This document shows, piece after piece, positions 2,314 through 62,112 of a stretch of DNA of 64,000 bases. The notes under the pieces are model-generated. The model had not been told where the DNA came from, ran no database searches, and saw only the letters and a program-made list of their open reading frames with translations. The stretch lies in contig CANNDF010000004.1 in the NCBI GenBank assembly GCA_947503305.1, forward strand, positions 248,001 through 312,000, read 5' to 3'. The translations under genes and the position numbers were made by a program. Position 1 is the stretch's first letter. Each line of letters starts with the position of its first letter. The stretch is from an uncultured Dokdonia sp. (lineage in GTDB: Bacteria > Bacteroidota > Bacteroidia > Flavobacteriales > Flavobacteriaceae).

Positions 2314-3010
2314 GCCTTGCTAAATAATCATAATGATCACCTTCTATAATGAGTTCAGCAATGAGCTCATTTTTTTTAGCATAATATTGTAGCGTCTCAA
2401 AATCGAGGTATAACCACTTGAAATCTTTAGATCGTTGCCCTTTATAACTCATGGCCATGGTGACTTCTCCATAATAATTACTATTCATGTCAATCCAGTA
2501 ACCTCCATCTTCATCTTCAAACATATATTTGATATCAGAACTATCTATTAAAATCTGACCTCCTACATTTAATAACGATTTTAGATGCTGTAAATACAAA
2601 TCAATTTTACTAACCTGCTCAAAAATTCCAGTGCCATTCATAAGTAATAACAGCGTGTCATATGTATCATGATGATGTAGAATAGAATTGCAAATGGTGT
2701 TTTTAAGAGTCCGCTTTCGCGAAAGCGTAAGTACTCCTTTAGAAATATCAATTCCTGTAACATCGAGTCCTTGCTCTTGTAACCAAATACTATGACTCCC
2801 TACACCCGAACCGATATCTAATACACGGCCATTGCATAGTTGAAGCGCTTTTTGTTCTATAAGAGGCATGTCTTCATAATCACGAAATAAGTAGGGGATA
2901 GGTAATATATCATCTTCTGCGATAGAAGAGTGTACTATAATATCTTCTGTATAATGAGACATATAATAGTCTGTAGTTGCTAGTCCAAAAATGTCTATAT
3001 GATGATCCAC
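2300..3010 (-). CDS. Class I SAM-dependent methyltransferase
   Basis: A 236-aa protein. Motif I, VLDIGSGVGSHS, is at residues 63-74, followed by GLDVTGIDIS (motif II acid at the end of strand 2) at 81-90, so AdoMet binding is well supported; the substrate is unknown. The N-terminal DIFGLATTDYY.HYTED stretch looks like part of the family, which favours the start at 3010 over the internal Met at 2962. The palindrome GCTTTCGCGAAAGC (2713-2726) lies inside the gene and is read as LSRK, just after motif II. The start is only 23 bp from the divergent YkgJ-type gene. Confidence 0.82.
   Translation of the reverse strand: MDHHIDIFGLATTDYYMSHYTEDIIVHSSIAEDDILPIPYLFRDYEDMPLIEQKALQLCNGRVLDIGSGVGSHSIWLQEQGLDVTGIDISKGVLTLSRKRTLKNTICNSILHHHDTYDTLLLLMNGTGIFEQVSKIDLYLQHLKSLLNVGGQILIDSSDIKYMFEDEDGGYWIDMNSNYYGEVTMAMSYKGQRSKDFKWLYLDFETLQYYAKKNELIAELIIEGDHYDYLARLTVA
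2713..2726. repeat. Iterated palindrome GCTTTCGCGAAAGC, copy 1
   Basis: Perfect 14-bp palindrome, followed on the + strand by GTA, inside the methyltransferase gene. Confidence 0.95.
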
Positions 3011-3033
3011 CTGTAATACTTAAATTTGTGATT

Positions 3034-3525
3034 ATGGATAAGGTACTTAAATTGCTTCCACAGCAAGCCAAAGATAAACATAACGAAAACAAAAAATTTT
3101 TTGCGAAGCTTCGGAAAAAGCCACCAAAAAATCTAGACTATATCATGCAAGAGTTACATGCATCAGAATTTGAACGTACGGATTGCCTCACCTGTGCTAA
3201 TTGTTGTAAAACGACAGGGCCATTATTTACAGACAAAGATGTCACTCGTATTGCAAAATATTTTAAGATGAAAGAGCAAGCTTTTATCGAAACCTATTTA
3301 CGAATAGATGAAGAAAACGATTATGTTTTACAAAGTGTTCCTTGTACTTTTCTAGGCGCAGATAATTATTGTTCTATTTATGAAGTACGACCAAAAGCTT
3401 GTCGGGAATTTCCACATACCGACAGGAAAAAATTCCAGCAAATTTCTAATCTTACACTTAAAAATGTTGCTATCTGTCCAGCAGCATATTCTATTGTAGA
3501 AGAAATGAAAAAACGAATACGATAG
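3034..3525 (+). CDS. YkgJ family cysteine-cluster protein
   Basis: A 163-aa cytoplasmic protein if started at the ATG at 3034. A longer frame from 2977 would overlap the divergent methyltransferase start and adds no family-like sequence. The cysteine cluster is CLTCANCC (Cys51, 54, 57, 58), then PCTF (Cys104), YCSIY (Cys113), ACREFP (Cys123) and a late Cys148. This is the pattern of the YkgJ/UPF0153 family, thought to bind zinc or an iron-sulfur cluster. The molecular role is not established. The basic N-terminal 35 residues precede the metal-binding core. Confidence 0.85.
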   Translation: MDKVLKLLPQQAKDKHNENKKFFAKLRKKPPKNLDYIMQELHASEFERTDCLTCANCCKTTGPLFTDKDVTRIAKYFKMKEQAFIETYLRIDEENDYVLQSVPCTFLGADNYCSIYEVRPKACREFPHTDRKKFQQISNLTLKNVAICPAAYSIVEEMKKRIR

Positions 3526-3528
3526 ATT

Positions 3529-4188
3529 CTACATTTTATCTTTTTGTAATAGCCATTCTTTAAACTCGTAAAAATTAGTAGGGTGTACACCATGTCCTAC
3601 AGGGAATTCATGCAATGAACTTTCAATCCCTAAGGCTTTGAGATATGGAGGAGTTTTACGAGCTGCATCAATAGGTATTACTTGATCTACTGTTCCATGT
3701 GAATTGTAGATATTTAGATGCGCATAGGAAGCATTGCTTTTAAGATTTATAATAGCTTCATTTATATAACCACTGAGTCCTATAACATTCTTGACTTTTT
3801 CTGGATATGTAAGCGCAACACTATAACTTAAAATAGTGCCTTGACTGAACCCCAATAGCGTTACATTATAAGGATCCAAATCATATGCTATTATGGCTTC
3901 ATCAATAAATTGAGCTATCAGATCTCTAGAGACGATTCCTCTTTCATTATCTGATGATTTTACACCCTCATGATCAATAGTGATTGCATACCATGCATTT
4001 CCATAGGGTTGCATAGGGATAGGAGCTCTTGCCGAGATGATAAAATAGTTTCCCGGAAGCTCAGGAGCAAAACTAAACAGATCATTTTCATCACTTCCGT
4101 ACCCATGTAAAAGAAGTAATAATGGAGATTTTCCATTTGACTTTTTTGTAGGTTTCTGGATAATATGCGTTAAGGATAGTTGTTTCAT
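3529..4188 (-). CDS. Alpha/beta hydrolase, phospholipase/carboxylesterase family
   Basis: A 219-aa protein in the acyl-protein-thioesterase-like family. The oxyanion-hole region is LLLLHGYGSDENDL (residues 24-37), the nucleophile elbow is GFSQG with Ser115, the acid is probably Asp168 (GTVDQVIP) and the base His199 (VGHGVHP). All catalytic elements are present in the expected order, and the length fits the family. No signal peptide, so cytoplasmic. It ends 3 bp after the convergent YkgJ-type gene. Short-chain ester hydrolysis is the expected activity; the natural substrate cannot be told. Confidence 0.87.
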   Translation of the reverse strand: MKQLSLTHIIQKPTKKSNGKSPLLLLLHGYGSDENDLFSFAPELPGNYFIISARAPIPMQPYGNAWYAITIDHEGVKSSDNERGIVSRDLIAQFIDEAIIAYDLDPYNVTLLGFSQGTILSYSVALTYPEKVKNVIGLSGYINEAIINLKSNASYAHLNIYNSHGTVDQVIPIDAARKTPPYLKALGIESSLHEFPVGHGVHPTNFYEFKEWLLQKDKM

Positions 4189-4195
4189 AGGTATT

Positions 4196-4225
4196 AAAAA
4201 AGATGTTACAATATCGCAACATCTC
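4196..4225 (-). terminator. Intrinsic terminator, minus strand
   Basis: On the minus strand AGATGTT/AACATCT (4218-4224 with 4201-4207) closes a loop of about 10 nt and is followed by a run of T. It lies downstream of the small membrane protein ending at 4249. Confidence 0.7.
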
Positions 4226-8231: not shown

Positions 8232-8996
8232 TTAAAATCCTTCAAATGCTCCAAGCCCAAACAATGCAAAATCATATTTTACTGGGTCATCGGGATCTAG
8301 TTTGCGAAGAGAAGTATCTAATTCTAAAAGGGCTTTTGCATCATTTTGCTTTCGCGAAAGCAATCTTAATTTTCTTCCTACATTACCAGTATGTACATCA
8401 AGAGGACATGATAGGAGGGATGGGGATATCTTTTTCCAAATCCCAAAATCTACACCAGCTTTTGAATCACGAACCATCCATCGTAAAAACATATTGATAC
8501 GCTTTGCAGCGCTATTGCGCAATGGATCACTCACATGTTTTTGTGTGCGTTGTTGATGTTGTACTTCAAAAAATAGTGCTTTAAAATAAGCTATTGCAGG
8601 CTGTAATCCTTCTTGTGTAATTCCAGAAACAAAGACATTCTCTAGTCCTCCATGATTAAGATACATGTTTTGAAGAGCTCGGACAAATGTTTCTAAATCT
8701 ATTTCATTAAATGTACGATGTACAAATCCTGAGAATATTTCTTTTTGATCTGGGGTATAATTAAGGATAAACTCATGAGGATTGTCTTCCATTAATGTCA
8801 TTAGCTTTGTAGCATTTGTAATGATACTTTTACGATTACCCCATGCAATTGTTGCTGTAAGAAATCCAGCGATCTCTATATCTTCCTTTTTTTCAAATCG
8901 ATGCGGGATTTGTATAGGATCTGATGGGATAAAATCTGGGCGTTCATATTGCATCGCTTTTTCATCCAGAAAGCGTTTAAGATCTTTTTTATTCAC
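8232..8996 (-). CDS. TIGR02757 family protein
   Basis: A 254-aa cytoplasmic protein with the features of the TIGR02757 family: EIAGFLTATIAWGNRKSIITNA near residue 45, and the C-terminal LLSCPLDVHTGNVGRKLRLL and DPDDPVKYDFALFGLGAFEGF blocks. The family is widespread in Bacteroidota; its helical, HhH-glycosylase-like appearance is only an impression and no function is established. It overlaps the upstream membrane-protein gene by 8 bp. The iterated palindrome (8348-8361) is read here as LSRK just before the conserved C-terminus. Confidence 0.82.
   Translation of the reverse strand: MNKKDLKRFLDEKAMQYERPDFIPSDPIQIPHRFEKKEDIEIAGFLTATIAWGNRKSIITNATKLMTLMEDNPHEFILNYTPDQKEIFSGFVHRTFNEIDLETFVRALQNMYLNHGGLENVFVSGITQEGLQPAIAYFKALFFEVQHQQRTQKHVSDPLRNSAAKRINMFLRWMVRDSKAGVDFGIWKKISPSLLSCPLDVHTGNVGRKLRLLSRKQNDAKALLELDTSLRKLDPDDPVKYDFALFGLGAFEGF
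8348..8361. repeat. Iterated palindrome GCTTTCGCGAAAGC, copy 2
   Basis: Perfect 14-bp copy inside the TIGR02757 gene, flanked by T and A, without the GTA extension. Confidence 0.95.
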
Positions 8997-15332: not shown

Positions 15333-17468
15333 ATGAAAACTATAGCCCCGATACTATTTCTTACACTTATTTTTGCTCTCAGTTGTAATCAAAAAGATAC
15401 TAGAGCTTTGACAAAAAATATAAATCCTCCTATAGCAGAGAAGAAATCAGTAAATCTAGAAATGCATGGCGATATCCGTGTGGATGATTATTTCTGGATG
15501 AATGAACGCGATCATCCAGAAGTCATAGATTATTTAGAACGCGAAAATGATTATTATGATAAAATGACTGCGCATACTAAAGCATTTCAAAAAGATCTTT
15601 TTGAAGAAATGAAAGGGCGCATAAAAGAAGATGATGCTTCTGTACCTTTTAAAAATAATGGTTACTGGTATTATACTCGATATGAAACAGGAAAGGACTA
15701 TCCAGTTTTCTGTCGTAAAAAAGATTCTTTATCTGGTGATGAAATTGTTGTTTTTGACAATAATATAATGGCAGAAGGGCAATCCTATTTTAATCAAGCG
15801 GGTTATACTGTCTCAGAAGATAATCGTATTGCAGCTTTTGGAGTAGATCTTGTGAGTAGACGTAAATACACACTTCGATTTAAAAATCTAGAGACAGGAG
15901 AATTACTTCCCGAAAAAATTGAGAATACTACTGGAAGAGCTGTATGGACTAATGATAATAAAACTGTTTATTATTCTAGAAAAGATGAAGAAACCTTACG
16001 GTCTAATCAAATATATAAACATGTTTTAGGTACATCTCCAGAAAAGGATGAACTCGTTTTTCAAGAAGATGATGAAACCTTTTTTTCTTATGTATATAAA
16101 ACTAAGTCTAAAAAGTTTATTGTTATAGGCTCTAGTAGTACACTCACAAGTGAGTTTCAGGTTGCTTCTGCCGAGAGTGGGGAACATAAATTTAAAGTCT
16201 TTCAGAAACGTACAAGGGGCTTAGAGTATAGTATCGCGCATTATGAGGACACGTTTTATATACTAACAAACAAGGATAAGGCGACTAATTTTAAATTAAT
16301 GAAGACTTCTGAAACAGAAACAAGTCTCGAGAACTGGACAGAAGTTATTGCGCATAGAGATGATGTTTTACTAGAAGATATTGATATTTTTAAGGACTTT
16401 TTGGTTGTAAGCGAGCGCGCTAATGGATTAAATAAAATACGTATTACACGTTGGGATGGAGAAGTAGATTATTATTTGCCTTTTGATAATGAGACATATA
16501 CTGCCTATCCAACTTCTAATATAGAATTTGATACAGAAACATTGCGATATGCATATAATGCACTTAATACGCCAAGTTCTATTATTGATTTTAATATGAC
16601 TACTAAGGAAAAAGAAGTCAAGAAAGAACAAGAAGTACTGGGGGGTAACTTTGATAAAGACAATTACATTATGGAACGTGTATGGGCAACAGCTCGTGAT
16701 GGAGTCAAGGTGCCCGTATCTATAATCTATCATAAAAATACTCCTATAAATGGGGAAGCTCCATTACTTCAATATGCGTATGGAAGTTACGGAAGTACTA
16801 TTGATCCTTCTTTTTCGACAATACGATTAAGTCTTTTGGATCGCGGTTTTATTTATGCTATTGCTCATATTAGAGGTGGGGAGTATTTAGGACGGACCTG
16901 GTATGAAGATGGTAAATTACTAAAGAAGAAAAACACATTTACAGATTTTATCGATGTGTCAAAATATCTAGTAAGTTCTGGATACACATCATCAGAGCAT
17001 TTATATGCATCTGGAGGATCTGCAGGGGGGTTATTAATGGGAGCAGTAATAAATATGGCTCCAGAATTATATAATGGAGTAATAGCTGCCGTGCCTTTTG
17101 TAGATGTAGTTACGACCATGCTTGATGATACAATTCCTTTAACTACAGGAGAGTATGATGAGTGGGGAAATCCTAATGAAAAATCATATTATGACTATAT
17201 GAAGAGTTATAGCCCTTATGATAACGCTTTCGCGAAAGCGTACCCAAACATATTTGTAACTACGGGATATCACGATAGTCAAGTACAATATTGGGAACCT
17301 GCAAAATGGATAGCAAAATTACGAGATAACAATACTGGCAAGAATAAAATTCTTTTTCATTGTAATATGGATGCAGGGCATGGAGGTGCTTCAGGAAGGT
17401 TTGAAGCTTTAAAAGAAATTGCCGAAGACTATGCCTTTCTGCTGGATTTAGAAAAGATCAGGAAATAA
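15333..17468 (+). CDS. S9 family peptidase, oligopeptidase B-like lipoprotein
   Basis: A 711-aa protein with a lipoprotein signal ending at a Cys in FALSC near residue 19. The N-terminal beta-propeller begins with RVDDYFWMNERDHPEVIDYLEREN, the classic oligopeptidase B/prolyl oligopeptidase opening. The catalytic domain has the nucleophile in GGSAGG (Ser563), the acid in GYHDSQVQYWEPAKW and the His in DAGHGGASGRF. It cleaves peptides, probably after basic residues if the OpB assignment holds, at the periplasmic face of a membrane. The palindrome copy at 17226-17239 is read AFAKA between the Ser and Asp blocks, so it lies in a well-conserved domain without breaking it. Confidence 0.9.
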   Translation: MKTIAPILFLTLIFALSCNQKDTRALTKNINPPIAEKKSVNLEMHGDIRVDDYFWMNERDHPEVIDYLERENDYYDKMTAHTKAFQKDLFEEMKGRIKEDDASVPFKNNGYWYYTRYETGKDYPVFCRKKDSLSGDEIVVFDNNIMAEGQSYFNQAGYTVSEDNRIAAFGVDLVSRRKYTLRFKNLETGELLPEKIENTTGRAVWTNDNKTVYYSRKDEETLRSNQIYKHVLGTSPEKDELVFQEDDETFFSYVYKTKSKKFIVIGSSSTLTSEFQVASAESGEHKFKVFQKRTRGLEYSIAHYEDTFYILTNKDKATNFKLMKTSETETSLENWTEVIAHRDDVLLEDIDIFKDFLVVSERANGLNKIRITRWDGEVDYYLPFDNETYTAYPTSNIEFDTETLRYAYNALNTPSSIIDFNMTTKEKEVKKEQEVLGGNFDKDNYIMERVWATARDGVKVPVSIIYHKNTPINGEAPLLQYAYGSYGSTIDPSFSTIRLSLLDRGFIYAIAHIRGGEYLGRTWYEDGKLLKKKNTFTDFIDVSKYLVSSGYTSSEHLYASGGSAGGLLMGAVINMAPELYNGVIAAVPFVDVVTTMLDDTIPLTTGEYDEWGNPNEKSYYDYMKSYSPYDNAFAKAYPNIFVTTGYHDSQVQYWEPAKWIAKLRDNNTGKNKILFHCNMDAGHGGASGRFEALKEIAEDYAFLLDLEKIRK
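17226..17239. repeat. Iterated palindrome GCTTTCGCGAAAGC, copy 3
   Basis: Perfect 14-bp copy with the 3' GTA extension, inside the S9 peptidase, read in the AFAKA frame. Confidence 0.95.
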
Positions 17469-21493: not shown

Positions 21494-23866
21494 ATGGCTT
21501 TTATAGAAGAAGATTTTCCGATGGCGATACATATCAGCTTTAAAAAGTTGGTAGATGATTATCGTGCATTTCTTGATGGAGATGATGAGATACTTGCTCT
21601 AAAAGCAAAACGCATAATTGCTGTTGCAGAGGAATATCCAGAATTGATAGATGGAGTACAGGATTTTGAAGAATTAAAAAAATTAAAACCGCAAACCGAT
21701 ATTCTACTTGAAGATCTTTTTTCAAATGTTTTACAAGACAATGAGATTAAGATAGCTTCTTTGCCTTTCCATAACGGGATCATAAAAAGCTCTAGACGCT
21801 ATGATAAGATCATTGAGAATGCTGGCGAAGGATTTGTTCCAGAAATAAAAAACTTTGACGATAACCATTTTTATATAATGGGATGTAGCATTATATTAGG
21901 TAGACATTATGGATATAATATAGATTTTAGACGTCCTTTTTATTATGATATTCCTGATGCTAATGGGATCATACGTCACTATCGAATGTTATACAATGCG
22001 GACTATTTAATTACTGAAAAAGGAGAAAATGCTATTGATATTACGCAAGAGGATGTAAATGAATTACTGGACAACTTTGATAATATTGATTTATGGAAGG
22101 CAAAATTCCCTCCATTGAGTTGGAAGTTCAAAGGGTTTATTCTTGCAAACTTATATGACGCTACTACCGATGTCTCTATATCAGAGTTTAAAACAAATTT
22201 ATTAAAGTATGACAAAGGAGATAGCGATTTCATTTTAGCATTTCAAAACATATTTAGATCTATATTTAATCTTACAGAAATTAAAGTAGGGTTTTCAAAT
22301 TACAATGTTCAATTTAAAAGTTTGGAAAGAGTTCCAGAAAAAGAAATTGATAGTTTTGTCCTTAATGAAGAAATGACTCAAGAATGTGAAAGTGCCTTAT
22401 GTAGTGGATCTTTTCATTCTATTTTTACAAAAGGTGAGTTTTTTGCGGTATCAGATGTAGAAAAATATTATTCCTATGACACAACATCTCCCTTTTACAA
22501 AAACCTATTAGATCAGGGGATACATAGTGCTATTTTTGCACCTATAACACACGGAGGTGACTTTTTAGGATTGTTAGAAATTGTTTCTCCAAATAAGTAT
22601 GAACTTAATAGTATTAATGCGAATAAGTTACTGGATCTTATGCCGTATCTTGTTGATTCTGTATTACGATCTAGACAGCAGATGGAAAATGATTTAGAAA
22701 TCATTATCCAGAATGAATGTACCTCTATACATCCTAGCGTATATTGGAGATTTAGACAAGAGGCACGTCGCTTTATGTATGGTCAAGTAGATGGTGATAC
22801 GTCCATTACTTTTAGAGATATTGTTTTTAAAGACGTATACCCATTATTTGGACAGACAGATATTAAAGGATCTTCACAGGCAAGAAATACTGCTGTTCAA
22901 AAAGACTTACTATTACAATTAGAAACCTCACGTACCATTCTTAATAAAGTATTGGAAAAAAATAAACTTCCAGTATACGAAGAGTTTCTTTTTAGAATAG
23001 ATTCTTTTGTTAATGAAATCAATGAGCAATTAGCTGTAGATAGCGAACGTAAAATTTTAAACTTCTTTACCTATGATATCAAACCATTTTTTAATCATAT
23101 AAAGGGGAATGATCATCAGATTGATTTATTGATTTCTAACTATGAGGGGATGTTAGAAGATAGTATGGGACTCATTTATAAGCACCGTAAGGATTATGAT
23201 GAATCTGTCATGCTTATCAATAAAAAAATGGCTGCTGTTTTAGATAAGCAACAAGCACAAGCGCAAAAGATGTACCCTCATTTTTTCGAACGTTTTAAAA
23301 CGGACGGAGTAGAGCATAATATGTATATAGGCGAGTCTATCACTCGAGAAGATAGTTTCAATAAGATCTATCTATACAACCTTAGACTATGGCAGCTACA
23401 AGCTATTTGTGAGATGGAGAATGAACATTATAAGCTTTCGCGAAAGCTATCACACCCTCTAGATGTTGCTTCTATGATTTTAGTTTTTAATACATCTCTA
23501 TCAGTACGTTTTAGAATGGATGAAAAACGATTTGATGTAGATGGGACCTATAATGCACGTTACGAAGTAGTAAAAAAACGTGTTGACAAAGCATATATTA
23601 AGGGAACAGAAGAACGTGTTACTCAAAAAGGAAAAATTGCTATTGTCTATAGTCAAGCCGCAGATGAGCGTGAATATATGAGATATATTAAATTCTTACA
23701 AGAAAAGAAATATCTAGGAGAACATGTAGAAGTAGTAGAACTGGAAGACTTACAGGCTGTTACAGGGTTGAAAGCCATACGTGTAGATGTATTGTATAAA
23801 ACTAAAAAAGGAGCAGAAAAACAGTACTACACATATGAAGATCTAATGGAAGAAATAAGGAACTAG
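21494..23866 (+). CDS. Large GAF domain-containing protein
   Basis: A 790-aa cytoplasmic protein. A GAF-type ligand-binding domain is visible at about residues 275-395 (ALCSGSFHSIFTKGEFFAVSDVEKY, GIHSAIFAPITHGGDFLGLLEIVSPNKYELN). Flanking regions are long, mainly helical and acidic, with no kinase, cyclase or output motif that I recognise. The gene type is common in flavobacteria and its function is unknown. The start at 21494 (MAFIEEDFPMAIHI) is the only ATG before the conserved-looking sequence, apart from the Met at residue 10. The palindrome copy at 23434-23447 is read LSRK near residue 648. Confidence 0.75.
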   Translation: MAFIEEDFPMAIHISFKKLVDDYRAFLDGDDEILALKAKRIIAVAEEYPELIDGVQDFEELKKLKPQTDILLEDLFSNVLQDNEIKIASLPFHNGIIKSSRRYDKIIENAGEGFVPEIKNFDDNHFYIMGCSIILGRHYGYNIDFRRPFYYDIPDANGIIRHYRMLYNADYLITEKGENAIDITQEDVNELLDNFDNIDLWKAKFPPLSWKFKGFILANLYDATTDVSISEFKTNLLKYDKGDSDFILAFQNIFRSIFNLTEIKVGFSNYNVQFKSLERVPEKEIDSFVLNEEMTQECESALCSGSFHSIFTKGEFFAVSDVEKYYSYDTTSPFYKNLLDQGIHSAIFAPITHGGDFLGLLEIVSPNKYELNSINANKLLDLMPYLVDSVLRSRQQMENDLEIIIQNECTSIHPSVYWRFRQEARRFMYGQVDGDTSITFRDIVFKDVYPLFGQTDIKGSSQARNTAVQKDLLLQLETSRTILNKVLEKNKLPVYEEFLFRIDSFVNEINEQLAVDSERKILNFFTYDIKPFFNHIKGNDHQIDLLISNYEGMLEDSMGLIYKHRKDYDESVMLINKKMAAVLDKQQAQAQKMYPHFFERFKTDGVEHNMYIGESITREDSFNKIYLYNLRLWQLQAICEMENEHYKLSRKLSHPLDVASMILVFNTSLSVRFRMDEKRFDVDGTYNARYEVVKKRVDKAYIKGTEERVTQKGKIAIVYSQAADEREYMRYIKFLQEKKYLGEHVEVVELEDLQAVTGLKAIRVDVLYKTKKGAEKQYYTYEDLMEEIRN
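23434..23447. repeat. Iterated palindrome GCTTTCGCGAAAGC, copy 4
   Basis: Perfect 14-bp copy, here extended to a 16-bp palindrome by flanking A and T, inside the GAF protein gene. Confidence 0.95.
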
Positions 23867-25145: not shown

Positions 25146-28100
25146 ATGAAAGTAAAATACTCAACCATCTACAGTTTAATTTTAATTTTTTGTATAAGTT
25201 GTGCTACATATCAACCTCAATTTTCTGATAAAGAGGGAGGTAGTGACGGTACGCTTTCGCAAAAACAGACTCCTTCAAAAACCTTTTACCTTATAGGTGA
25301 TGCTGGAAATGCAAAAACAGGAGCCAGTACAGATGCCTTAGTTGCCCTTAAAAAAGTATTAGATAATACACAATCTCAAGAAGATTATGCCATTTTTCTA
25401 GGTGATAATATTTACGAAAATGGACTTCCGAGTGATAACAGTCCCGATCGTGCAGATGCCGATCATAAATTACAAACACAACTAGATGCAGTAGATGACT
25501 TTAAAGGGAATGTTGTATTTATCCCTGGGAATCACGATTGGCGAGAAGGAACTAAAGGATTAAAACGTCAACAAAAACGTATCGAAGAAAAGCTAGGTAA
25601 AAATGCATTCTTACCAAAGAATGGTTGTCCTATTAAAAAGATAGATGTAAATGACGATATCATTTTTATAGCTGTTGATACCCAATGGTATTTAGAAAAT
25701 TGGGATAAGAACCCTACAATGAATGATGATTGCGATATCAAGACAAGAAAAGATTTCTTTTTAGAAATAGAAGGCTTGTTTAAGAAAAATAATGAGAAGA
25801 CTATTATTGTTGCAATGCACCACCCTATGTACACAAATGGTATTCACGGAGGGAATTTTGCGGCTGGAAAGCATTTATTCCCATTTCAGTCTAAGGTGCC
25901 ATTTCCTGTTATAGGATCACTTATCGCACAGGTTAGGTCTCAAGGAGGAGTATCTCCTCAAGACAGGTATCATGCTAAGTATCGTAAATTCATGAATCAA
26001 CTCTCTACTCTGGCAAGAGATACAGATAAAGCAATTTTTGTTTCTGGTCATGAGCATAGTTTACAGTATATAGACCATGAAGGAGTAAAACAAATTGTTA
26101 GTGGCGCTGGTTCTAAAGCTTCTGCTGCAAGTCTGGGAGACGATGGATTATTTTCATACGGGGGTCAAGGATTTGCTGCATTGACAGTAGCAAATGATGG
26201 TTCGTCATTTGTTAAATACTACAGTGCTATAGATGGAGTTCCTAAACTCTTATACGAAACTGAGGTTCATGAAAAAGATAAAGCGTATGATATTTCGGGC
26301 TTATCTAACTCTTTTGAGACAAGTAGAAATGAATCTGTATATACTAAGGCAGATACTGAAAAGAAAAAATCATATGAAAGATTATGGGGAGAACATTATC
26401 GTTATGTCTATGGAACAGATATAAAAGTTCCTGTTGCTACTTTAGATACACTTATGGGTGGATTTACAATAGAACGTAAAGGTGGTGGACATCAGACAAG
26501 ATCTTTACGTTTGATAGATAAAGATGGAAGAAACTTTGCTTTACGGGCTATAAAGAAAAGTGCAGTACAATTTTTACAAAGTGTTGTTTTTAAAGAAAAC
26601 TTTATAAGAGATGAGTTTAAAGATTCGTTTACAGAAGATATTTTATTAGATTTTTATACCTCTAGTCACCCTTATGCGAGTCTTGCAATAGGACCTCTTG
26701 CAGATGCTGTGGGTGTTTATCATACAAACCCTCAGCTTTTTTATGTTCCAAAACATCCTGCTTTAGGAAAATATAATGCTGAGTTTGGAGATGAATTATA
26801 CATTATGGAAGAACGTCCTGATGATGGGTTTTTAGATGTTGCTTCTTTTGGAAATCCTGATGATATAGAGAGTACTGCAGATGTTTTTAAAAAAATACGA
26901 AAAGACGAAAAGTTTCAGGTAGATGAAGATGCTTATGTACGTGCACGTTTATTTGATATGCTTTTAGGTGACTGGGATCGCCATACAGATCAATGGAGAT
27001 GGGCTCGATTTGATGAATCTGATGATAAAAAAGTGTACAGACCTATCCCAAGAGATAGAGATCAAGCCTTTTCTAATTATGATGGAAAACTATTAGACTT
27101 TTTTAAATTCATAAGCCCTCCAGCAAGACAGTTTCAGGAATATGACGGAGCATTAAAGGATATTAAATGGATTAATAGTGCTGGGCTTAGACTAGACAGG
27201 GATCTCACAGGAAAAGTAGGTAGAGAGGTATGGATAAAACAAGCGCAGTATATTCAAAATAACCTTAGTGATACTGCTATTGATAATGCTTTTAAGTATT
27301 TTCCTCAAGAAGTTCAGGATGAAGTGCTTGAAGGGGTTAAAGCTAAACTGAAAGTACGTCGAGGAAATCTTGAGGATATTGCAAATCGTTATTATGATTA
27401 CTTATCTGATCTTGTTGTAATCAAGGGAACTGATAAAGATGATCATTTTGAGATTACAAGAAAAGATGGCGCTACTCAAGTAGATATCTCGCGTATTAAA
27501 AATGGAAAGGTATTGTCTCCGTATAAAAGCTATACTGTAAATAGCGCAGATACAGATGAAATATGGATTTATGGTCTAGATGACGATGATACATTTCATG
27601 TTGCCGGAAAAGGAAGGAAACCTATTCGTATGCGCGTTATAGGAGGTCAAAATAATGATTCATATACTATAGATGATGGTCGCCGACTTAAAATTTATGA
27701 TCACAAAGACAAACCTAATACTGTGATTAAGAAAAAAGGGATTATGCGTTTTTCAAATGATTACTCGTATAATACCCATAAATTCGATAAAACAATTCAA
27801 CGTATAAATAATGTGATACCATCTTTAGGGTTTAATCCAGATGATGGTTTGCGTATAGGACTGCAAGAGAGCTATACTGTAAAAGGATTTAAAGATAGCC
27901 CATTTGCTAGCAGACATTTACTTAATGTAGGATATTTTACAGCATCTAGTGGTTTTGATATCCAGTATAATGGAACTTTTACCAAAGCACTTGGAAAGTG
28001 GGATTTGGATATTTCTGCCCGATATACATCTGATAGCTTTGCACGTAACTTTTTTGGAATAGGTAATTTAACTGAGAATATAGAGGCTAATTTTGAAGAT

Positions 28101-37503: not shown

Positions 37504-38235
37504 TTATTTACTATGTGCAACTAAATGGGAAAGCGCTTCCTTAAGTTGTGAATTCCAATTTTTAAAATCATGTCCACCCTTTGTAACATGTGTTCTAATA
37601 TGATATCCTTTACTTGTATAGATATTTTTAAGAGGTTGTATATAGCGTTCGGCGTCGTTTACTCCAGTCGAAAGAAAAATATAAAGAGCTTCATTTTTTG
37701 AGAAGGCAATCTGCTTCATTAATAAATCTTGTCTAGGATATGTTACAGGGGATAGTAGTCCAAAATTTTTAAAAGATTGGGATACTGCAGAAAAATAAGC
37801 ACTGTTAAGCCCTCCGAATGAAATACCTATCAATGTTCTATCTTTTGGGTATATTTTTGAGGGGAATTGTGATTCCATTTTCGGAATGAGTTCTTTTTCG
37901 AAAAATGTAAGATAGTTTTCATTGCAAAAAAAGTATTCATTGCGATGATCGTTTCCGGTAGTGTCATCTATCGTATGTACAAAGACATACATTGCTTTTG
38001 GGATTTCATTTTTGTCTGTAAGTTCTTGTAAACGGGATATAGTACCGCTATCAATCATTTTTTTTCCATCTGTAAAATAAATAATAGGTATCGAACTTTC
38101 CGAATCACCCGTGGTATAGGTAGACACAGTAATCTCTCTTTGTAATGAATCACTTTGTAGGGTCGTTGTTTCTAATTGCGCTTTCGCGAAAGCGTAATTA
38201 AGAAAGATCACAATACATAATAGAAATGTTTTCAT
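37504..38235 (-). CDS. Secreted putative esterase (alpha/beta hydrolase)
   Basis: 243 aa from the ATG at 38235 (MKTFLLCIVIFLNYAFAKAQ). An upstream frame to 38262 would start inside a terminator hairpin. The signal peptide cleavage site AKA|Q is again encoded by a palindrome copy. The catalytic elements fit the esterase D/IroE-type family: IIYFTDGKKMID early, the nucleophile in GISFGGLNSAYFS, and the His in THVTKGGHDFKNW. It probably hydrolyses an ester in the periplasm. Confidence 0.83.
   Translation of the reverse strand: MKTFLLCIVIFLNYAFAKAQLETTTLQSDSLQREITVSTYTTGDSESSIPIIYFTDGKKMIDSGTISRLQELTDKNEIPKAMYVFVHTIDDTTGNDHRNEYFFCNENYLTFFEKELIPKMESQFPSKIYPKDRTLIGISFGGLNSAYFSAVSQSFKNFGLLSPVTYPRQDLLMKQIAFSKNEALYIFLSTGVNDAERYIQPLKNIYTSKGYHIRTHVTKGGHDFKNWNSQLKEALSHLVAHSK
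38180..38193. repeat. Iterated palindrome GCTTTCGCGAAAGC, copy 6 (in a signal peptide)
   Basis: Perfect copy with GTA extension, read on the minus strand as AFAKA at the signal-peptidase site of the esterase. Confidence 0.95.
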
Positions 38236-38248
38236 ATCTAGCTTAAAA

Positions 38249-42366: not shown

Positions 42367-43434
42367 ATGCCAAAATCATTATTATTTATACCCGATATTT
42401 CTGGATTTACAAATTTTGTGCAAACTACAGAAGTAGAACATAGTCAGCACGTTATTGCAGAACTTCTTGAGGTTATCATCTCTGCAAATACACAAAAACT
42501 AGCACTTGCAGAAGTAGAAGGGGACGCATTATTTTTTTATAAGGAATCTCATATCCCTTCTCAAGAAAAATTACTGGCTCAAGTAGAAACAATGTACACA
42601 GCATTTTATAGTCATTTAAAATTGCTTGAGAAACATCGTATTTGCCCTTGTCGTGCTTGTGCGACTGCTCCAGAGTTGGAATTAAAAATTATAGCTCACT
42701 CAGGAGATTTGCAATTTTTAGAAGTTCAAAATAATAGAAAACCTTTTGGAGAAGCAGTAATTAATGCGCATAGACTCCTTAAAAACTCAATATCTTCACA
42801 TAATTATGTGTTGATCAGTAAAGATTTGGCTACTGATATAGGAATGCCTATTGATTATGAAAGTAATTTATTCTGCTTTCGCGAAAGCGTAGACACCTAT
42901 GACACTAATGAAATACAGTATACGTTTTCAGAAATAGAAACTCAAAAGCTAAAACTCAAATCTTTTCCAGAGGGAACTAGAGTTTATCTTGAGGGGGCTC
43001 CTAACTTAGTTTTTGAACGCACATATCCTATAGATGCTGATAAACTAATGGAAACAATCACTAACTATAAGTACAGACATTTATGGGCAGAGGGAGTAGA
43101 TGAAATCCAATGGAATGATAAAGAAGTTACACGCTTGGGATCCGAACATATTTGTATCATAGGAGGAGAACAGCTTAACTTTACTGTAGTAGCCAAAGAT
43201 CAAGATTCAAGTGAACTTGTATATGGTGAACTTACAACAAGCCCTGCACCGGTAGATAAATTGTATCAATTTTATAATATTCAGCGTATATCAGATACAA
43301 AATCTAAAATTCGGGTAGAACTTTTTTGGGAAGCAAAATCTATTTTCAAGAAACTTATTATTGCATTGGTTGCTAAAAAAGCATTCAAAAAAGCCACTAA
43401 TAAAGCATTGGATAAATTACAGGAGATTGTCTAA
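42367..43434 (+). CDS. DUF2652: class III cyclase-like domain fused to an SRPBCC domain
   Basis: A 355-aa cytoplasmic protein. The N-terminal domain (about 1-190) has class III nucleotidyl cyclase features: LLFIPDISGFTNFV (metal Asp equivalent), AEVEGDALFFY (second Asp) and FGEAVINAHRLL in place of the GxxVNxAxRL block, where the Arg is kept but the Asn position is Ile. The C-terminal domain (from about 200) has an SRPBCC/START-like pattern (VFERTYPIDADKLMETITNYKYRHLWAEGVDEIQW ... YQFYNIQRISDTKSKIRVELFWEAKS). Catalysis is uncertain and the protein may only bind a nucleotide or lipid. A palindrome copy (42875-42888) is read CFRES. Confidence 0.8.
   Translation: MPKSLLFIPDISGFTNFVQTTEVEHSQHVIAELLEVIISANTQKLALAEVEGDALFFYKESHIPSQEKLLAQVETMYTAFYSHLKLLEKHRICPCRACATAPELELKIIAHSGDLQFLEVQNNRKPFGEAVINAHRLLKNSISSHNYVLISKDLATDIGMPIDYESNLFCFRESVDTYDTNEIQYTFSEIETQKLKLKSFPEGTRVYLEGAPNLVFERTYPIDADKLMETITNYKYRHLWAEGVDEIQWNDKEVTRLGSEHICIIGGEQLNFTVVAKDQDSSELVYGELTTSPAPVDKLYQFYNIQRISDTKSKIRVELFWEAKSIFKKLIIALVAKKAFKKATNKALDKLQEIV
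42875..42888. repeat. Iterated palindrome GCTTTCGCGAAAGC, copy 7
   Basis: Perfect copy with GTA extension, inside the DUF2652 gene, in the third reading frame (CFRES). Confidence 0.95.
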
Positions 43435-45550: not shown

Positions 45551-45640
45551 TTTATGTCGTATTCTTATATCGTGACACGGTAGTTTTTATATCACTTTAT
45601 CTTTATTCTTCGTGCAATGTTTCTTTAAATGCATGTATAC

Positions 45641-45654
45641 GCTTTCGCGAAAGC
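45641..45654. repeat. Iterated palindrome GCTTTCGCGAAAGC, copy 8 (intergenic)
   Basis: Perfect copy with the GTA extension on the opposite side, between the operon terminator and the PfkB kinase gene. Confidence 0.95.
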
Positions 45655-45695
45655 AAAACGATATATTCTCACTATGTTATATAAAAGATTTTATA

Positions 45696-48486: not shown

Positions 48487-49200
48487 ATGGAAAAGCAACG
48501 CGTACTTTTGGCAGAAGATGATTTTGATTTTGGAAGTATTCTTAAGCAATATCTTGAGATACATAATTTTCAGGTTATATGGACCAAAGATGGTAAAGAA
48601 GCTGAGTCTGCTTTCGCGAAAGCAGAAAAAGAAAACCTCCCATATGATATTTGTGTATTTGATGTCATGATGCCAAAACAAGATGGATTTACACTTGCAG
48701 AAAAAGTGATTACTATAAATCCAGAAGTCCCTTTTGTTTTTCTAACAGCAAAAAAATTAAAAGAAGATCGTATTCAAGGCTTAAAACTAGGGGCAGATGA
48801 CTATATCATAAAACCATTTGAAGCCGATATTTTAGTCTTGCGACTTCAGAATATCTTAAAAAGAACACAACAGGTTGCTCGTACAACAACCGTTAGTAAG
48901 CAATCATATACGATAGGGAACTATCAATTTGATGCTCAAAACCATACGCTTTCATACAATGAGATACTGCAGTCTCTCACAGAAAAAGAAGCGTTATTGA
49001 TTCAATATTTCTATGAAAATAAGAATCAGATGCTCCGAAGAGAAGATATCCTAACAAAAATCTGGGGAAGTGACGACTTCTTCTCAGGACGAAGTATGGA
49101 TGTTTTCATAAGTCGACTTCGGAAATACTTTAAGGAAGATCCAACGATTGCTATCGAGAGTACGCGAGGTGTTGGACTCACTTTTAAAATCAATAATTAG
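48487..49200 (+). CDS. OmpR-family response regulator (RprY-like)
   Basis: 237 aa. Receiver domain: acidic pair Asp11-Asp12, phospho-acceptor Asp59 in CVFDVMMPKQDG, Thr in VFLTAKK and Lys in DYIIKPFE. The C-terminal winged helix (about 140-235) has LTEKEALLIQYFYENKNQMLRREDILTKIWG and SRLRKYFKEDPTIAIESTRGVGLTFKI. It likely binds the phased GGTTAA repeats upstream of the operon. A palindrome copy is read AFAKA at residues 42-46, in a surface helix of the receiver. Confidence 0.94.
   Translation: MEKQRVLLAEDDFDFGSILKQYLEIHNFQVIWTKDGKEAESAFAKAEKENLPYDICVFDVMMPKQDGFTLAEKVITINPEVPFVFLTAKKLKEDRIQGLKLGADDYIIKPFEADILVLRLQNILKRTQQVARTTTVSKQSYTIGNYQFDAQNHTLSYNEILQSLTEKEALLIQYFYENKNQMLRREDILTKIWGSDDFFSGRSMDVFISRLRKYFKEDPTIAIESTRGVGLTFKINN
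48610..48623. repeat. Iterated palindrome GCTTTCGCGAAAGC, copy 9
   Basis: Perfect copy flanked by T and A (16-bp palindrome), inside the response regulator gene, AFAKA frame. Confidence 0.95.
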
Positions 49201-50634: not shown

Positions 50635-51762
50635 ATGGATGGATTATTATCTACTACTGTATATGCTGTTACTGCTATTGTTTGCTTAATTACTGCAATA
50701 GTAATACAGCGTATATTTTTTAAAGAAGTACAGCGTAGTGCTTCCTCTAAAGCCGTAGATGGGATTAAATGGTTTGGTTGGGCCATCTTTATATGGGGTT
50801 TCGGCGCATTGCTTCACCTTATTTTGGTATCTATATATGGAGTACAACCTACATCAAGGTTTATAATATATCTAGGGGTTGTTGTTTCTTTACTTAATTC
50901 ATTATGTATTCTTTTGTCTTTGCCATCTATAGAGCATGCTAAGAAACGAAGCTTGGTGGTTAGACTTGTAGAGCGTTTTAACCAAAGAGAATTTGTCATT
51001 TTTTTCTCTGGTATATTAGTTATGATCGCTTTTGTATTTATTGCAACTTCCTATAATAATGAAGCTATCCATAACACTTTTATATGGTTGATTGATATTC
51101 CTATATCCTTGGTGGTGGCATTGTCACTACTACATGAGTTAAATAAAGCATTTACGAGTAGAAATATGCGATTTATGATATTACCAGTACTCGTATTATT
51201 TGCTTTGATTATCATTGCGGTAACCCATCGTATTATACCTAAAGAGATGATTTCTGGCTATATGAATTCAGAACGATGGGAAAGTATAGGTGCCGTTACA
51301 TCCGTCTCGTTTAAGTTTTTATTTATATTGTTATTCTCTATTTTATTATATAGCTGGAAGTTTCTTTCTGAAAAAGAGCAGCAACAGACCCTTACAGAGA
51401 CAATAGAAAAAGAAAATCAAGATTTACGTAAAGCATATGAACAATTAGTCTTGGCTAATGAGAGCCATCTGGATACCATTAAAACGTTTAAGAGTGAACT
51501 TGAAGGAATACGAGCTACATCCAAAATCCAACTTTCAGACCGCCAGAAAGAAGTACTGGCAAATCTCGGAGTCTATGGCGATCGTATGTCTTATGGTGAA
51601 ATAGCAAATGCAATGCATATATCTTTAGATGGTTTTCAAGCTCATATTCACCAAATCAAAAAAATACTTAATATAAGTGGGGCAGGAGGTAAGGAGCGTT
51701 TGATTGCTTTTGCAAAAGCAAATGATATTATAAGACACGCTTCTATAACACCAACTGCTTAA
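50635..51762 (+). CDS. Membrane-bound LuxR-like transcription regulator
   Basis: 375 aa. About seven hydrophobic segments lie in residues 1-245, then a coiled coil (EKEQQQTLTETIEKENQDLRKAYEQLVLANE, about 250-280), then an HTH domain (SDRQKEVLANLGVYGDRMSYGEIANAMHISLDGFQAHIHQIKKIL, about 302-346) of the LuxR type. The 7TM-plus-HTH layout suggests a receptor that binds DNA directly from the membrane. I know similar arrangements only as uncharacterised Bacteroidota proteins. The ligand is unknown. Confidence 0.68.
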   Translation: MDGLLSTTVYAVTAIVCLITAIVIQRIFFKEVQRSASSKAVDGIKWFGWAIFIWGFGALLHLILVSIYGVQPTSRFIIYLGVVVSLLNSLCILLSLPSIEHAKKRSLVVRLVERFNQREFVIFFSGILVMIAFVFIATSYNNEAIHNTFIWLIDIPISLVVALSLLHELNKAFTSRNMRFMILPVLVLFALIIIAVTHRIIPKEMISGYMNSERWESIGAVTSVSFKFLFILLFSILLYSWKFLSEKEQQQTLTETIEKENQDLRKAYEQLVLANESHLDTIKTFKSELEGIRATSKIQLSDRQKEVLANLGVYGDRMSYGEIANAMHISLDGFQAHIHQIKKILNISGAGGKERLIAFAKANDIIRHASITPTA

Positions 51763-54211: not shown

Positions 54212-54721
54212 ATGGATCAAAAAACGTTCATAACGCTTGTAACTCCTTTTAAAGATAAAATATATCGTGTGGCCAAACGATTATTGATATCTGAAGATGA
54301 GGCACAAGATGCTACTCAAGAAGTATTGATACGATTGTGGACCCGTAGGGATCAGATGAAAAAATACCGAAGTGTAGAGGCGTTTGCAATGACAATTACG
54401 AAAAATTATTGTTACGACTTATTAAAGGCAAAACGAAGTAATAATTTACGGATTGTACATAATAATTATGAAGATCATTCTCGTAATACTGGCCGACAAA
54501 TAGAAGTTGCAAATGAAGTTGAATGGGTATATACTTTGATGAAAGATTTACCTGAACAACAACGATTAATATTACAATTAAGAGATATAGAGCAGTTTGA
54601 TAATTCAGAAATTGCAGCAATGTTAGAAATGAATGAAACAGCGGTGAGAGTTGCGTTATCAAGAGCTAGGAAAACAATAAGAGAAGCATTAATAAAAAAA
54701 CAAAACTATGGAGTCCAATAA
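54212..54721 (+). CDS. ECF RNA polymerase sigma factor
   Basis: 169 aa, normal ECF length. Region 2 is DKIYRVAKRLLISEDEAQDATQEVLIRLWTRR (about 15-46) with RSVEAFAMTITKNYCYDLLKAKR. Region 4 is LPEQQRLILQLRDIEQFDNSEIAAMLEMNETAVRVALSRARKTIREAL (about 113-160). Its 3' end overlaps the anti-sigma-like gene by 14 bp. Confidence 0.93.
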   Translation: MDQKTFITLVTPFKDKIYRVAKRLLISEDEAQDATQEVLIRLWTRRDQMKKYRSVEAFAMTITKNYCYDLLKAKRSNNLRIVHNNYEDHSRNTGRQIEVANEVEWVYTLMKDLPEQQRLILQLRDIEQFDNSEIAAMLEMNETAVRVALSRARKTIREALIKKQNYGVQ

Positions 54722-55145
54722 AGTTGAGCAGTTACTGGAGGCCTATTTTGAGGGAGCTACAACCCTTGCACAGGAAAAACAGTTACGAGATTATTTTACA
54801 AGTACAGAAGTAGCACCACATTTAGAAGATTATGTAGGAATGTTTTCCGCTTTCGCGAAAGCGCAAGAAGAAACGTATAATCTACCTATAGAAATTCCAA
54901 AACCTAAACGTCGTTATGGTTGGATATCTGGTGTTGCCGCAGTGGCTATAGTAGTAGTAGGTCTTACTATTCAACTTAAAGGAGATAATGATGCCTATAC
55001 AGGGACTTATGAAGATCCAGAAGTTGCCGTTTTAAAAACCAAACAAGCTTTAGGATTGGTAACAAAAATGTTTAATGAAAGCACTGCACAGCTGGGAGCA
55101 GTCAATGAATTTAATTCAACTACCAGCAATTTTTTTAAAAAATAA
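54708..55145 (+). CDS. Anti-sigma-like membrane protein
   Basis: 145 aa with a short cytoplasmic N-terminal helical domain (VEQLLEAYFEGATTLAQEKQLRDYF, a shape common in Bacteroidota anti-sigma factors), one membrane segment (about 73-88, ISGVAAVAIVVVGLTIQL) and a periplasmic tail. The gene overlap with the sigma factor supports an anti-sigma role. The palindrome copy at 54849-54862 is read AFAKA at about 48-52. Confidence 0.75.
   Translation: MESNKVEQLLEAYFEGATTLAQEKQLRDYFTSTEVAPHLEDYVGMFSAFAKAQEETYNLPIEIPKPKRRYGWISGVAAVAIVVVGLTIQLKGDNDAYTGTYEDPEVAVLKTKQALGLVTKMFNESTAQLGAVNEFNSTTSNFFKK
54849..54862. repeat. Iterated palindrome GCTTTCGCGAAAGC, copy 10
   Basis: Perfect copy inside the anti-sigma-like gene, AFAKA frame, flanked C and G but without GTA. 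Confidence 0.95.
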
Positions 55146-60123: not shown

Positions 60124-60231
60124 AGGGCATGTTTTGAAGGGCGCAAAGATATAATATTCTTTGTGCTCGTACTACCGATGCGGTTTATTTTTAAGATAAC
60201 GATTTCGCTATTAAACGATTGATTTATAGAC

Positions 60232-60408: not shown

Positions 60409-60504
60409 TTTATAAATAGCTATAATTATCCTTGTCAGGATAGTGTGGTAAATAAAATTTGTAAATCTCAGTGTATCCTTAACTGTTAAGAAGAAAAATG
60501 GATA

Positions 60505-60870
60505 CTATATATAGCTATGTATATTGATAAGAGGAGTCTTAGTATTATGGTGTATATAGTCTATAAGATACTCTTCTTTCTGTTGTATTCTTTTTAAGTA
60601 TAATACTTTATACGAAGAATGTGTAGTCACATTTTTATGCATTAGAAATGTATGAAAAGTAAATGCATAAAATGTATTTAATGAAGGTATTTGATTATAA
60701 GATATACTTTCATAAGCAACTTCGTTTTTAGATTGATTATAGGAAGATTGGATCAATTCTGTACGAAAGTGCGGTGATACAGTTGTGCCTGTATATAGTT
60801 GTTGTGCATATACATTTATAAGTAGTATAATGCTTAACAACCAATACTGTATGCCTATTTTATATCGCAT
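60505..60870 (-). CDS. Small secreted protein, unknown function
   Basis: 121 aa. A signal peptide is visible (hydrophobic YWLLSIILLINVYAQ, cleavage near VYAQ). The mature part, about 100 residues, is rich in Tyr, His and Ser and shows no known domain. No operon context; the gene lies between the 58-aa peptide and the thioredoxin/MsrA-like gene. Confidence 0.5.
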   Translation of the reverse strand: MRYKIGIQYWLLSIILLINVYAQQLYTGTTVSPHFRTELIQSSYNQSKNEVAYESISYNQIPSLNTFYAFTFHTFLMHKNVTTHSSYKVLYLKRIQQKEEYLIDYIHHNTKTPLINIHSYI

Positions 60871-60955
60871 GGTGTAAAGATACGAGTATTTTCTATTGCG
60901 TATCTTATATACTCAGTATGAGTGTTCATAGTAATCTATAGACTACTGTGAATAT

Positions 60956-61951
60956 CTAAGGTGTTACATCATTTTGAAGCTTTTTTGTCCAAGATGAAAC
61001 AAACTCTTTGTCAAATAGCACCTCTTTTTTATTTTTTGATGAAATAGCCGATTCTTTTAACCATTTTAACTGTCTTGGACTAAGGTATTTTGTAGCATTT
61101 TGACGCTTACCTAACGCTGAGTTTATTTTAGTTTTTTGAATAGTACTTAATGGTAGATATTTATAGGCTGTATGACGAAGATAATAATCTTCATCATTGC
61201 TAGCAGGCCGATAAGAACTACTTTTATCTATAGGTCTAAAATCATTTTGTTTAGCATACGCATCTAGTGTGTCTTCATTTAATTTACGTTTGTCATAAGT
61301 TACCTTAACTACTTCACGGCCATTCATAAAACCAGCTTCAGTAGCAAGTACTCCATCTGTGGCACCCAGTTGTTTTTCTCCGGTCCAGAAGCAATACATT
61401 GTATAATATGTTTCTTTTGTAGTATTTAAGGCACTGAATTCTTTTCCAAGTAAAATCATATACTCAGGAATTTCTTTAAATGTTTTTGTCAATGCTGTAT
61501 GCATTGCTTTATAAAGTCCTTTTGCAGAGTAATTACCTGCCACTCTAGGAGTAAGATCGATACCATTTGCGTCTACAATACGAACCACAGGATTGTTCCA
61601 ACTAGGTTCTTTAAATTGATTAAGAATTTGGCGGTCTTTCCCACCTTTATTATTATGAATAACCAGAGGTATAAATTGATCTTCAATGGCCTCAACAAGC
61701 AATGGATTGCTCAATACATTATTCCCATAATTACGACAGGTAGCACAACCAGGGACTTCTTGAAAAAGAATTAAAACGGGTTTATTCTCTCTTTTGGAAA
61801 GTGATACGGCGGTATCATAATCTCGATACCAACTTACTTTTCCAAGTTCAATATCTTGCTGTAATGCATTCGTTCGTTCTTGAGCTAAACTGTTTAAAAA
61901 TGAAAAACTTATTAAAAATATGGTGATTGCGTTGAGATGTTTATTTTTCAT
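60956..61951 (-). CDS. VPGC-type thioredoxin-like protein with MsrA-like domain
   Basis: 331 aa with signal peptide (cleavage near SLAQ). A thioredoxin-like domain follows, with PVLILFQEVPGCATCRNYG: the pair Cys69 and Cys72 sits in a VPGCxTC motif, the Cys form of the VPGUxxT (seleno)protein family. At about 184-220 comes an MsrA-like block (MYCFWTGEKQLGATDGVLATEAGFMNGREVVKVTYD), where Cys187 lines up with the catalytic Cys of methionine sulfoxide reductase A. The protein probably reduces oxidised methionine or other groups in the envelope, with the thioredoxin half recycling the MsrA-like Cys. Confidence 0.82.
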   Translation of the reverse strand: MKNKHLNAITIFLISFSFLNSLAQERTNALQQDIELGKVSWYRDYDTAVSLSKRENKPVLILFQEVPGCATCRNYGNNVLSNPLLVEAIEDQFIPLVIHNNKGGKDRQILNQFKEPSWNNPVVRIVDANGIDLTPRVAGNYSAKGLYKAMHTALTKTFKEIPEYMILLGKEFSALNTTKETYYTMYCFWTGEKQLGATDGVLATEAGFMNGREVVKVTYDKRKLNEDTLDAYAKQNDFRPIDKSSSYRPASNDEDYYLRHTAYKYLPLSTIQKTKINSALGKRQNATKYLSPRQLKWLKESAISSKNKKEVLFDKEFVSSWTKKLQNDVTP

Positions 61952-62098
61952 AGCGATGATATATTTTCTTTTTACTCATTTTTTGTCTCTCATCAATACA
62001 TGTTCTTACAACATTATATGTAATTAGTAAAGATTTAGCATTCAATACTAGTACTAGATTACGATTCAGTCCTGAAAATTGACAGTTGGGTTTATTAT

Positions 62099-62112
62099 GC
62101 TTTCGCGAAAGC
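62099..62112. repeat. Iterated palindrome GCTTTCGCGAAAGC, copy 11 (intergenic)
   Basis: Perfect copy with GTA extension, 42 bp before the start of the TPR-like gene. Confidence 0.95.

Follow-up and report, generated by a model that had tools for sequence, protein, structure and literature searches.

A symmetric element of about 52 bp with a strict palindromic core recurs across the chromosomes of a few Flavobacteriaceae genera

The window studied here, a 64-kb stretch of an uncultured Dokdonia sp. that belongs to contig C4 of a draft genome of 4.26 Mb (labelled G000), repeats the 14-letter palindrome GCTTTCGCGAAAGC many times, and this raises the question of what such a word does. An initial annotation, made from the letters alone, listed eleven perfect copies, and a motif scan places all of them exactly where it had put them. 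At a guanine-plus-cytosine content of 33.9%, 13 matches with at most two mismatches occur where shuffles predict 0.08, an excess as far above chance as had been proposed. None has a single mismatch, two have two (starting at 25253 and 51706), and all 11 occurrences of TTCGCGAA sit within full 14-mers. The palindrome is the core of a longer element. Our preferred reading, which we hold tentatively and at somewhat less than an even chance, is that this is a two-fold symmetric element of about 52 bp, maintained across the chromosomes of a few Flavobacteriaceae genera as an uptake-type signal of self DNA.

The excess extends beyond the window. A genome-wide count, suggested by the initial annotation, gives 570 perfect copies against none of the reversed control; 668 matches have at most one mismatch, so that 570 perfect copies stand against 98 single-mismatch ones. 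Among 397 Flavobacteriaceae genomes drawn evenly over 237 genera, 80 hold at least one match and only six, from three genera, are rich (408–857 copies): G000 and G206 (857) in genus g1, G010 (578), G242 (664) and G394 (609) in g11, and G190 (408), the one species of g191. The remaining 74 hold 1–19 copies each. In a phylum-wide sample, 16 of 296 genomes match and the window's own genome is the only rich one; nine other family members have 1–4 copies, and 6 of 266 genomes outside the family have one each. The rich genomes, with about one copy per 4–8 kb, group together in a midpoint-rooted tree built on two proteins concatenated for 31 genomes, and a single origin of the rich state appears likely from these sequences. 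Taken singly, the oligopeptidase B tree joins G190 to g1 with the position of g11 open, and that of DUF2400 places G190 elsewhere.

A look for other iterated palindromes of at least 10 bp, covering 40 kb in each of 11 poor genomes, brought out nothing except AT repeats, and none stood out in 29 loci of 5–21 kb from named or unclassified Bacteroidota, one of which (Flavobacterium sp. SLB02) holds a single copy of GCTTTCGCGAAAGC. One poor genome, G101 (L385-L386), has a non-palindromic repeat containing GGTTAAGGCTAA, found 15 times in 40 kb with both strands counted. A search of one literature library found no paper printing GCTTTCGCGAAAGC, CTTTCGCGAAAG or TTTCGCGAAAGCGTA, and nothing on a highly iterated palindrome in Bacteroidetes or an overrepresented DNA uptake sequence in Flavobacter; the papers returned for Dokdonia and palindromes had, by their titles, unrelated subjects.

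The manner in which copies arise can be read from gene alignments. In DUF2400 and oligopeptidase B, each aligned across 31 genomes, the site replaces existing sequence without any change of length, and the protein encoded by oligopeptidase B is changed by it, as from VEAKA to AFAKA. In these two conserved genes the palindrome arose by substitution and not as a mobile insert. Both sites are common to the two g1 genomes and G190. In the three g11 genomes, oligopeptidase B lacks a copy and DUF2400 carries one elsewhere along its length, so that in DUF2400 the mark is kept and its position is not. Between G242 and G010, all four site differences consist of 1–3 substitutions. The initial annotation had also entertained a small mobile unit, tolerated where it lands. 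The response-regulator site at 48610 is insertion-like, with five extra residues relative to Flavobacterium and Winogradskyella homologues, and one difference between G000 and G206 aligns with gaps, as such a unit would predict. Against the unchanged lengths at the two conserved genes, the purely substitutional differences between G242 and G010, and orthologous sites common to different genera, a mobile origin is very improbable.

An intrinsic terminator was likewise rejected. In a 284-kb sample of G000, 37 of 45 copies lie inside genes called by a simple open reading frame (ORF) caller, 21 of the 37 in the AFAKA frame, and no T-run enrichment is seen on the outward side. The view that the palindrome is a genome-wide signal and not a terminator is well supported by the 570 copies, their even spacing and a roughly six-fold constraint on the core. 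In a 180-kb sample of G206, 25 of 42 copies are genic; intergenic copies thus make up 18% (G000) and 40% (G206) of the samples, against about 9% of non-coding sequence. For the window, the proposed division into nine genic and two intergenic copies is acceptable, the assignment of the copy at 62099 depending on the start chosen for an ORF that begins with TTG.

The core is strongly constrained. G242 and G010 are 89.8% identical over 132.7 kb aligned, and the aligned copies are perfect in both genomes in 27 of 30 and 27 of 28 cases, compared with 32% of background 14-mers (10 of 40 and 4 of 32 copies fall outside the aligned blocks and were not counted). For sites chosen as perfect in at least one genome, the core has 7 substitutions in 434 positions against 9–13% in the flanks; the core evolves about six times more slowly than its surroundings. 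Numbers are small for other pairs: 3 of 3 copies are kept between G242 and G394, and 3 of 4 from either side between G000 and G206, one of the three in weakly alignable flanks. Selection, or a biased drive, acting on the DNA itself would keep the element at about one per 4–8 kb.

The sequence around the core is also shared, and symmetrically so. The initial annotation described a directional GTA extension; GTA does flank one side of seven of the eleven copies (six right, one left). The directionality does not hold over 45 sites in 284 kb of the same contig, where both sides have the same preference (G at +1 in 28 right and 26 left arms, A at +3 in 33 and 35). Across 145 sites (131 from g1, 8 from g11, 6 from g191) read outward, G reaches 73% at +1, T 48% at +2 and A 77% at +3, alike on both sides, and G then falls to 2–10% from +4 to +19, returning to 19% at +20, 11–19% up to +30 and 17–19% beyond. 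The arms therefore favour G-T/R-A followed by a G-poor, A/C-rich stretch to about +19, with equal G content on both sides (7%). This bias is present in fully intergenic arms (n = 111, g1 and g11) and so does not reflect codon use. In a larger sample the g11 bias is strong with a less sharp end, and that of G190 reaches only to about +7. The favoured A positions differ between genera, and the arms in this sense vary like dialects. The element is thus about 52 bp long and two-fold symmetric, a 14-bp core between two arms of about 19 bp, its length resting mainly on arms from g1, phages and the metal-efflux cluster described below. Such symmetry about a strictly palindromic core points to a dimer, presumably a protein of the rich group, that reads double-stranded DNA. 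An extended hairpin formed by the arms was rejected, arm-to-arm matches being 6.9 of 19 against 6.6 by composition (sd 0.15).

A target this long bears on one further explanation, a HIP1-like one in which the palindrome is left behind by an orphan DNA methyltransferase acting with directed mismatch repair. A 14-bp core with 19-bp arms far exceeds the target of a type II methyltransferase. The element shares with HIP1 (GCGATCGC, cyanobacteria) that it is an iterated palindrome of very high frequency, and it is confined to few genera; HIP1 is 8 bp long at about one per kb, unlike the 14 bp plus arms at one per 4–8 kb found here. Outside the full site the inner TCGCGA shows hardly any enrichment (18 against an expected 15 in the G000 sample). 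Elhai reports the same for CGATCG outside HIP1, where only the full word is enriched and a methyltransferase link is proposed (PMC4390886). We consider an origin of this kind quite improbable.

Partial copies bear on a conceivable Chi-like function, in which the palindrome would stop AddAB-type degradation from either side and promote RecA loading on the G/T-rich strand leading into the core, with phages keeping the site to survive the nuclease. Both strands are rich in G and T immediately 5' of the core, and RecA prefers such composition. The density is comparable to that of Chi in E. coli (about one per 5 kb), phage contigs carry the element and could benefit from it, and all six rich genomes encode PF12705 nuclease-domain proteins of AddB length. 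Lone half-sites GCGAAAGC number 75 on both strands of five samples, 4–20 times expectation. They are nevertheless rarer than the 198 whole palindromes of the same samples, and 45 of the 75 differ from a whole palindrome by at most two mismatches, which gives them the look of copies in decay or in formation. Chi is a short, asymmetric word recognised on a single strand and does not have to be a palindrome; we know of no Chi as long as 14 bp. The nuclease domain also occurs in all ten poor genomes tested, and taken together these points leave a Chi-like role improbable. A strict three-base periodicity of A along the arms would have pointed to RecA. It was rejected: in intergenic arms its z score is 3.4 in g1, 6.4 in g11 and 1.6 in g191 (10 arms, not clear), and different single positions carry the signal in each genus.

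Degenerate copies also occur in the window. The half-copy that the initial annotation gave at 25250 is present as GCTTTCGCAAAAAC, starts at 25253 with two mismatches, and is probably a decayed or nascent site. Variants of the GCTTTTGCAAAAGC type, found at 51706, number three in the G000 and G206 samples, with 10% G in their arms. Separately, G206:C40 1-180000 (L322-L330) has four half-copies AATTTCGCGAAAGCG, preceded by stretches that are loosely alike and resemble TTGAAAC-AGTTCAGAGTA; this may be a repeat dispersed between genes, with half of the palindrome inside it.

A few long gaps aside, the distances between copies are more regular than chance would give. Over the first 100 sites of contig C1 of G000, with six gaps of at least 20 kb left out, the coefficient of variation (CV) of the gaps is 0.46 against 0.99 for random placement, and 3 of 93 gaps are shorter than 2 kb where 24 are expected; with the six gaps in, the CV is 1.15. 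With nothing left out, it is 0.34 in the window, 0.71 on contig C2 (20 sites), 0.62 and 0.60 in the G000 (284 kb) and G206 samples, 0.41, 0.51 and 0.44 in the three g11 genomes and 0.82 in G190. The G190 sample also has weaker arms and more partial copies than those of g1 and g11, with 12 TTTCGCGAAA outside full sites, and looks as if the system were fading.

This regularity is the ground of the closest rival to the uptake-type reading, a chromosome-organising site at which a dimeric nucleoid, condensin-loading or occlusion factor of a non-ParB family would anchor or measure DNA. The two-fold symmetric 52-bp element, the strong core constraint and, in samples from five of the six rich genomes, gaps more regular than chance (CV 0.41–0.62, with C2 at 0.71) are consistent with such a role. 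A 16-mer subset of the G190 sites spreads along the chromosome to at least 2.88 Mb of 3.16 Mb, as this role would also predict. Macrodomain exclusion is not seen in that subset, despite a 303-kb gap at 2.37–2.68 Mb that contains parB, itself with a core copy nearby. The less even spacing in G190, the presence of the element in phage contigs, and two long gaps with conjugation genes, nearly without copies and responsible with their like for the CV of 1.15, argue against this role. Noc and ParB sites (Noc-binding sites and parS) are palindromes of about this length, tolerated in genes and scattered around the chromosome, as here; the copy number of the present element is far higher. Each rich genome encodes one ParB-family protein, and the four compared resemble the ParB of poor genomes. 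A second ParB or Noc as reader was accordingly rejected (one PF02195 protein in each of the six), and the DNA-binding regions of the four that were aligned are, by eye, close to 26 others, with small changes in g11. Chromosome organisation is a possible but, on balance, unlikely explanation.

The two gaps were examined over 60 kb each; one has a single copy at its very edge and the other has none. Both are conjugative islands and probably recent arrivals. The first holds three asymmetric near-copies ending TTTTCGCGAAAGC(G/A)T(A/G)C (L402:19549, L403:751 and L403:17481; G000:C1 about 365.5, 366.8 and 383.5 kb), two of which are GCTTTTCGCGAAAGC, one base longer than the motif; these are perhaps a foreign or nascent form. 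The second encodes two beta-lactamase-fold (PF00144) proteins (L405 2773-3987 and 7189-8598). A full-length type IV pilus/type II secretion ATPase lies at G000:C1:622010-623128, within a palindrome-poor stretch at 602–686 kb that is perhaps another acquired island.

Phage DNA carries the element too. An 18-base pattern with G at +1 and A at +3, which biases these two positions and leaves +4 onwards unbiased, was found in 30 stretches of 20 viral contigs, one of which, at 54% GC, may be a chance match; such a search sees only contigs with copies. The sequence examined (20 contigs and six further pieces) has 1–5 copies per contig, and over 66 distinct arms G is 5–17% at +4 to +19 and 18–24% at +20 to +23. 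Ten proteins from three stretches were tested: L165 has tape-measure and integrase matches (three of its five proteins have no match), L216 a portal and a major head protein, and L182 a head maturation protease. Compared with phage and plasmid records, the site and its arms had no more than weak partial matches (E at least 3). Searches with proteins from phage pieces, and with the response regulator, turned up no named carrier.

Among poor genomes, 13 stretches of nine genomes, picked for closely placed matches, were read. Several carry copies within a common metal-efflux cluster, and in G078, G087, G101, G215 and G160 pairs lie exactly 933 bp apart amid genes for RND efflux, outer-membrane efflux, a CusB-like fusion protein and a heavy-metal P-type ATPase. 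Seven of eight proteins from two loci (L031 and L032) match such efflux families or a related permease, and one has no match. The outer-membrane efflux gene was compared in eight copies from seven genomes; of 16 site positions, 12 are intact and the other four have 1, 2, 6 and 7 differences. As far as the sequences indicate, this fits a cluster that spread out of rich hosts and partly decayed.

We prefer the uptake-type reading because it agrees with the pattern of copies, with sites that shift inside a gene that stays marked, with arms that differ from genus to genus and with a travelling cluster that bears the mark, and because a competent relative is reported to prefer self DNA. That report describes natural competence and a preference for its own DNA in Riemerella columbina, which it places in the same family, and states that F. 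johnsoniae was not competent (PMC7965970). A dimeric reader would recognise self DNA as it enters the cell, a role of which we are less sure than of the dimeric reading itself. If a piece of DNA needs one copy per several kb, copies would accumulate to an even density, a gene could lose one site and gain another yet remain marked, and the mark would go along with genes moving between rich species.

Several observations weigh against this preference. Known uptake sequences are not perfect palindromes, and phage contigs carry the element although phages do not enter by transformation. Identity between G242 and G010, a 90%-identical pair, is independent of the distance from a site, with no recombination signal around sites. 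No reader protein was found among the families searched (ParB, PF00437, ComEC and PF12705). The full-length type IV pilus/type II secretion ATPase (PF00437) is present in two of six rich and 8 of 28 other genomes; it does not track the palindrome and was rejected as a correlate. By this ATPase the rich genomes also give no general sign of a Neisseria-type pilin receptor, pilins themselves not having been searched. The ComEC domain (PF03772) occurs in all six rich genomes, and also in nine of ten poor genomes tested, so it does not discriminate. With ComEC and AddAB-type nucleases in the rich and nearly all poor genomes, neither route is excluded or favoured. Uptake sequences are described as less evenly spaced than chromosome-compacting sites would be (PMC1939737), and the palindrome, unlike them, is rather evenly spaced.

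By analogy, the element would work most like the DNA uptake sequences (DUS) of Neisseriaceae, the uptake signal sequences (USS) of Pasteurellaceae, and HIP1, matching none of these in full. With DUS and USS it shares hundreds to thousands of near-perfect copies with perfect ones in large excess genome-wide, restriction to a clade, composition-biased flanks outside the core (AT-rich in USS), origin in place by point mutation (one insertion-like case aside) and, through ComEC, a component of competence machinery. It differs in being a perfect palindrome, symmetric over about 52 bp, more evenly placed and present in phage contigs. USS are described as a motif of about 31 bp with AT-rich flanks and a spacing of about 1 kb (PMC7811141), against 4–8 kb here. 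To our knowledge, no other iterated palindrome of such length combines symmetric arms with such even spacing. Somewhat more doubtful than the uptake-type reading as such, though a possibility we take seriously, is that this is an undescribed self-DNA mark of Flavobacteriaceae genera and their phages, about 52 bp and symmetric, with a dimeric reader, even density and genus-specific arms, and neither a DUS, HIP1, Chi nor a ParB/Noc site. A type IX secretion system sorting domain encoded in the window points to Bacteroidota, and the best named matches of one window protein are from Flavobacterium and Winogradskyella, in line with Flavobacteriaceae as the family. The copies in the window are listed below.

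Table 1. Elements and two-mismatch copies in the 64-kb window (positions from its first letter; + and - give the strand of the gene)
Feature	Position	Core	Strand	Context
52-bp element	2694..2745	2713-2726	none	S-adenosylmethionine (SAM)-methyltransferase-like gene (ORF 2300-3010 -), frame LSRK
52-bp element	8329..8380	8348-8361	none	DUF2400 gene (8232-8996 -), frame LSRK; site common to G206, G190
52-bp element	17207..17258	17226-17239	none	Oligopeptidase B gene (15333-17468 +), frame AFAKA; site common to G206, G190
52-bp element	23415..23466	23434-23447	none	ORF 21494-23866 +, frame LSRK
52-bp element	32293..32344	32312-32325	none	N-terminus (signal-peptide-like by eye) of ORF 31165-32376 -, frame AFAKA
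52-bp element	38161..38212	38180-38193	none	N-terminus (signal-peptide-like by eye) of putative esterase (37504-38262 -), frame AFAKA
52-bp element	42856..42907	42875-42888	none	DUF2652 gene (42367-43434 +), frame FRES
52-bp element	45622..45673	45641-45654	none	Intergenic; TAC in left arm (GTA on the other strand)
52-bp element	48591..48642	48610-48623	none	Response-regulator gene (48487-49200 +), frame AFAKA; five extra residues
52-bp element	54830..54881	54849-54862	none	ORF 54708-55145 +, frame AFAKA
52-bp element	62080..62131	62099-62112	none	Within or just upstream of ORF 62079-62786 + (TTG start uncertain)
Two-mismatch copy GCTTTCGCAAAAAC	25253..25266		none	TAC on left side
Two-mismatch palindromic variant GCTTTTGCAAAAGC	51706..51719		none	

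We know of no uptake sequence proven in this group, and if the element is an uptake signal, self-DNA recognition would extend to it. If it is instead chromosome-organising or Chi-like, the places where that machinery acts would be mapped across the genome with unusual clarity. In each case the reader can be fished directly with a 52-bp bait. The mark may also help to trace genes exported from these Flavobacteriaceae, and if it is truly a mark of self DNA, the time that a stretch of DNA has spent in the group would show in the number of its cores.

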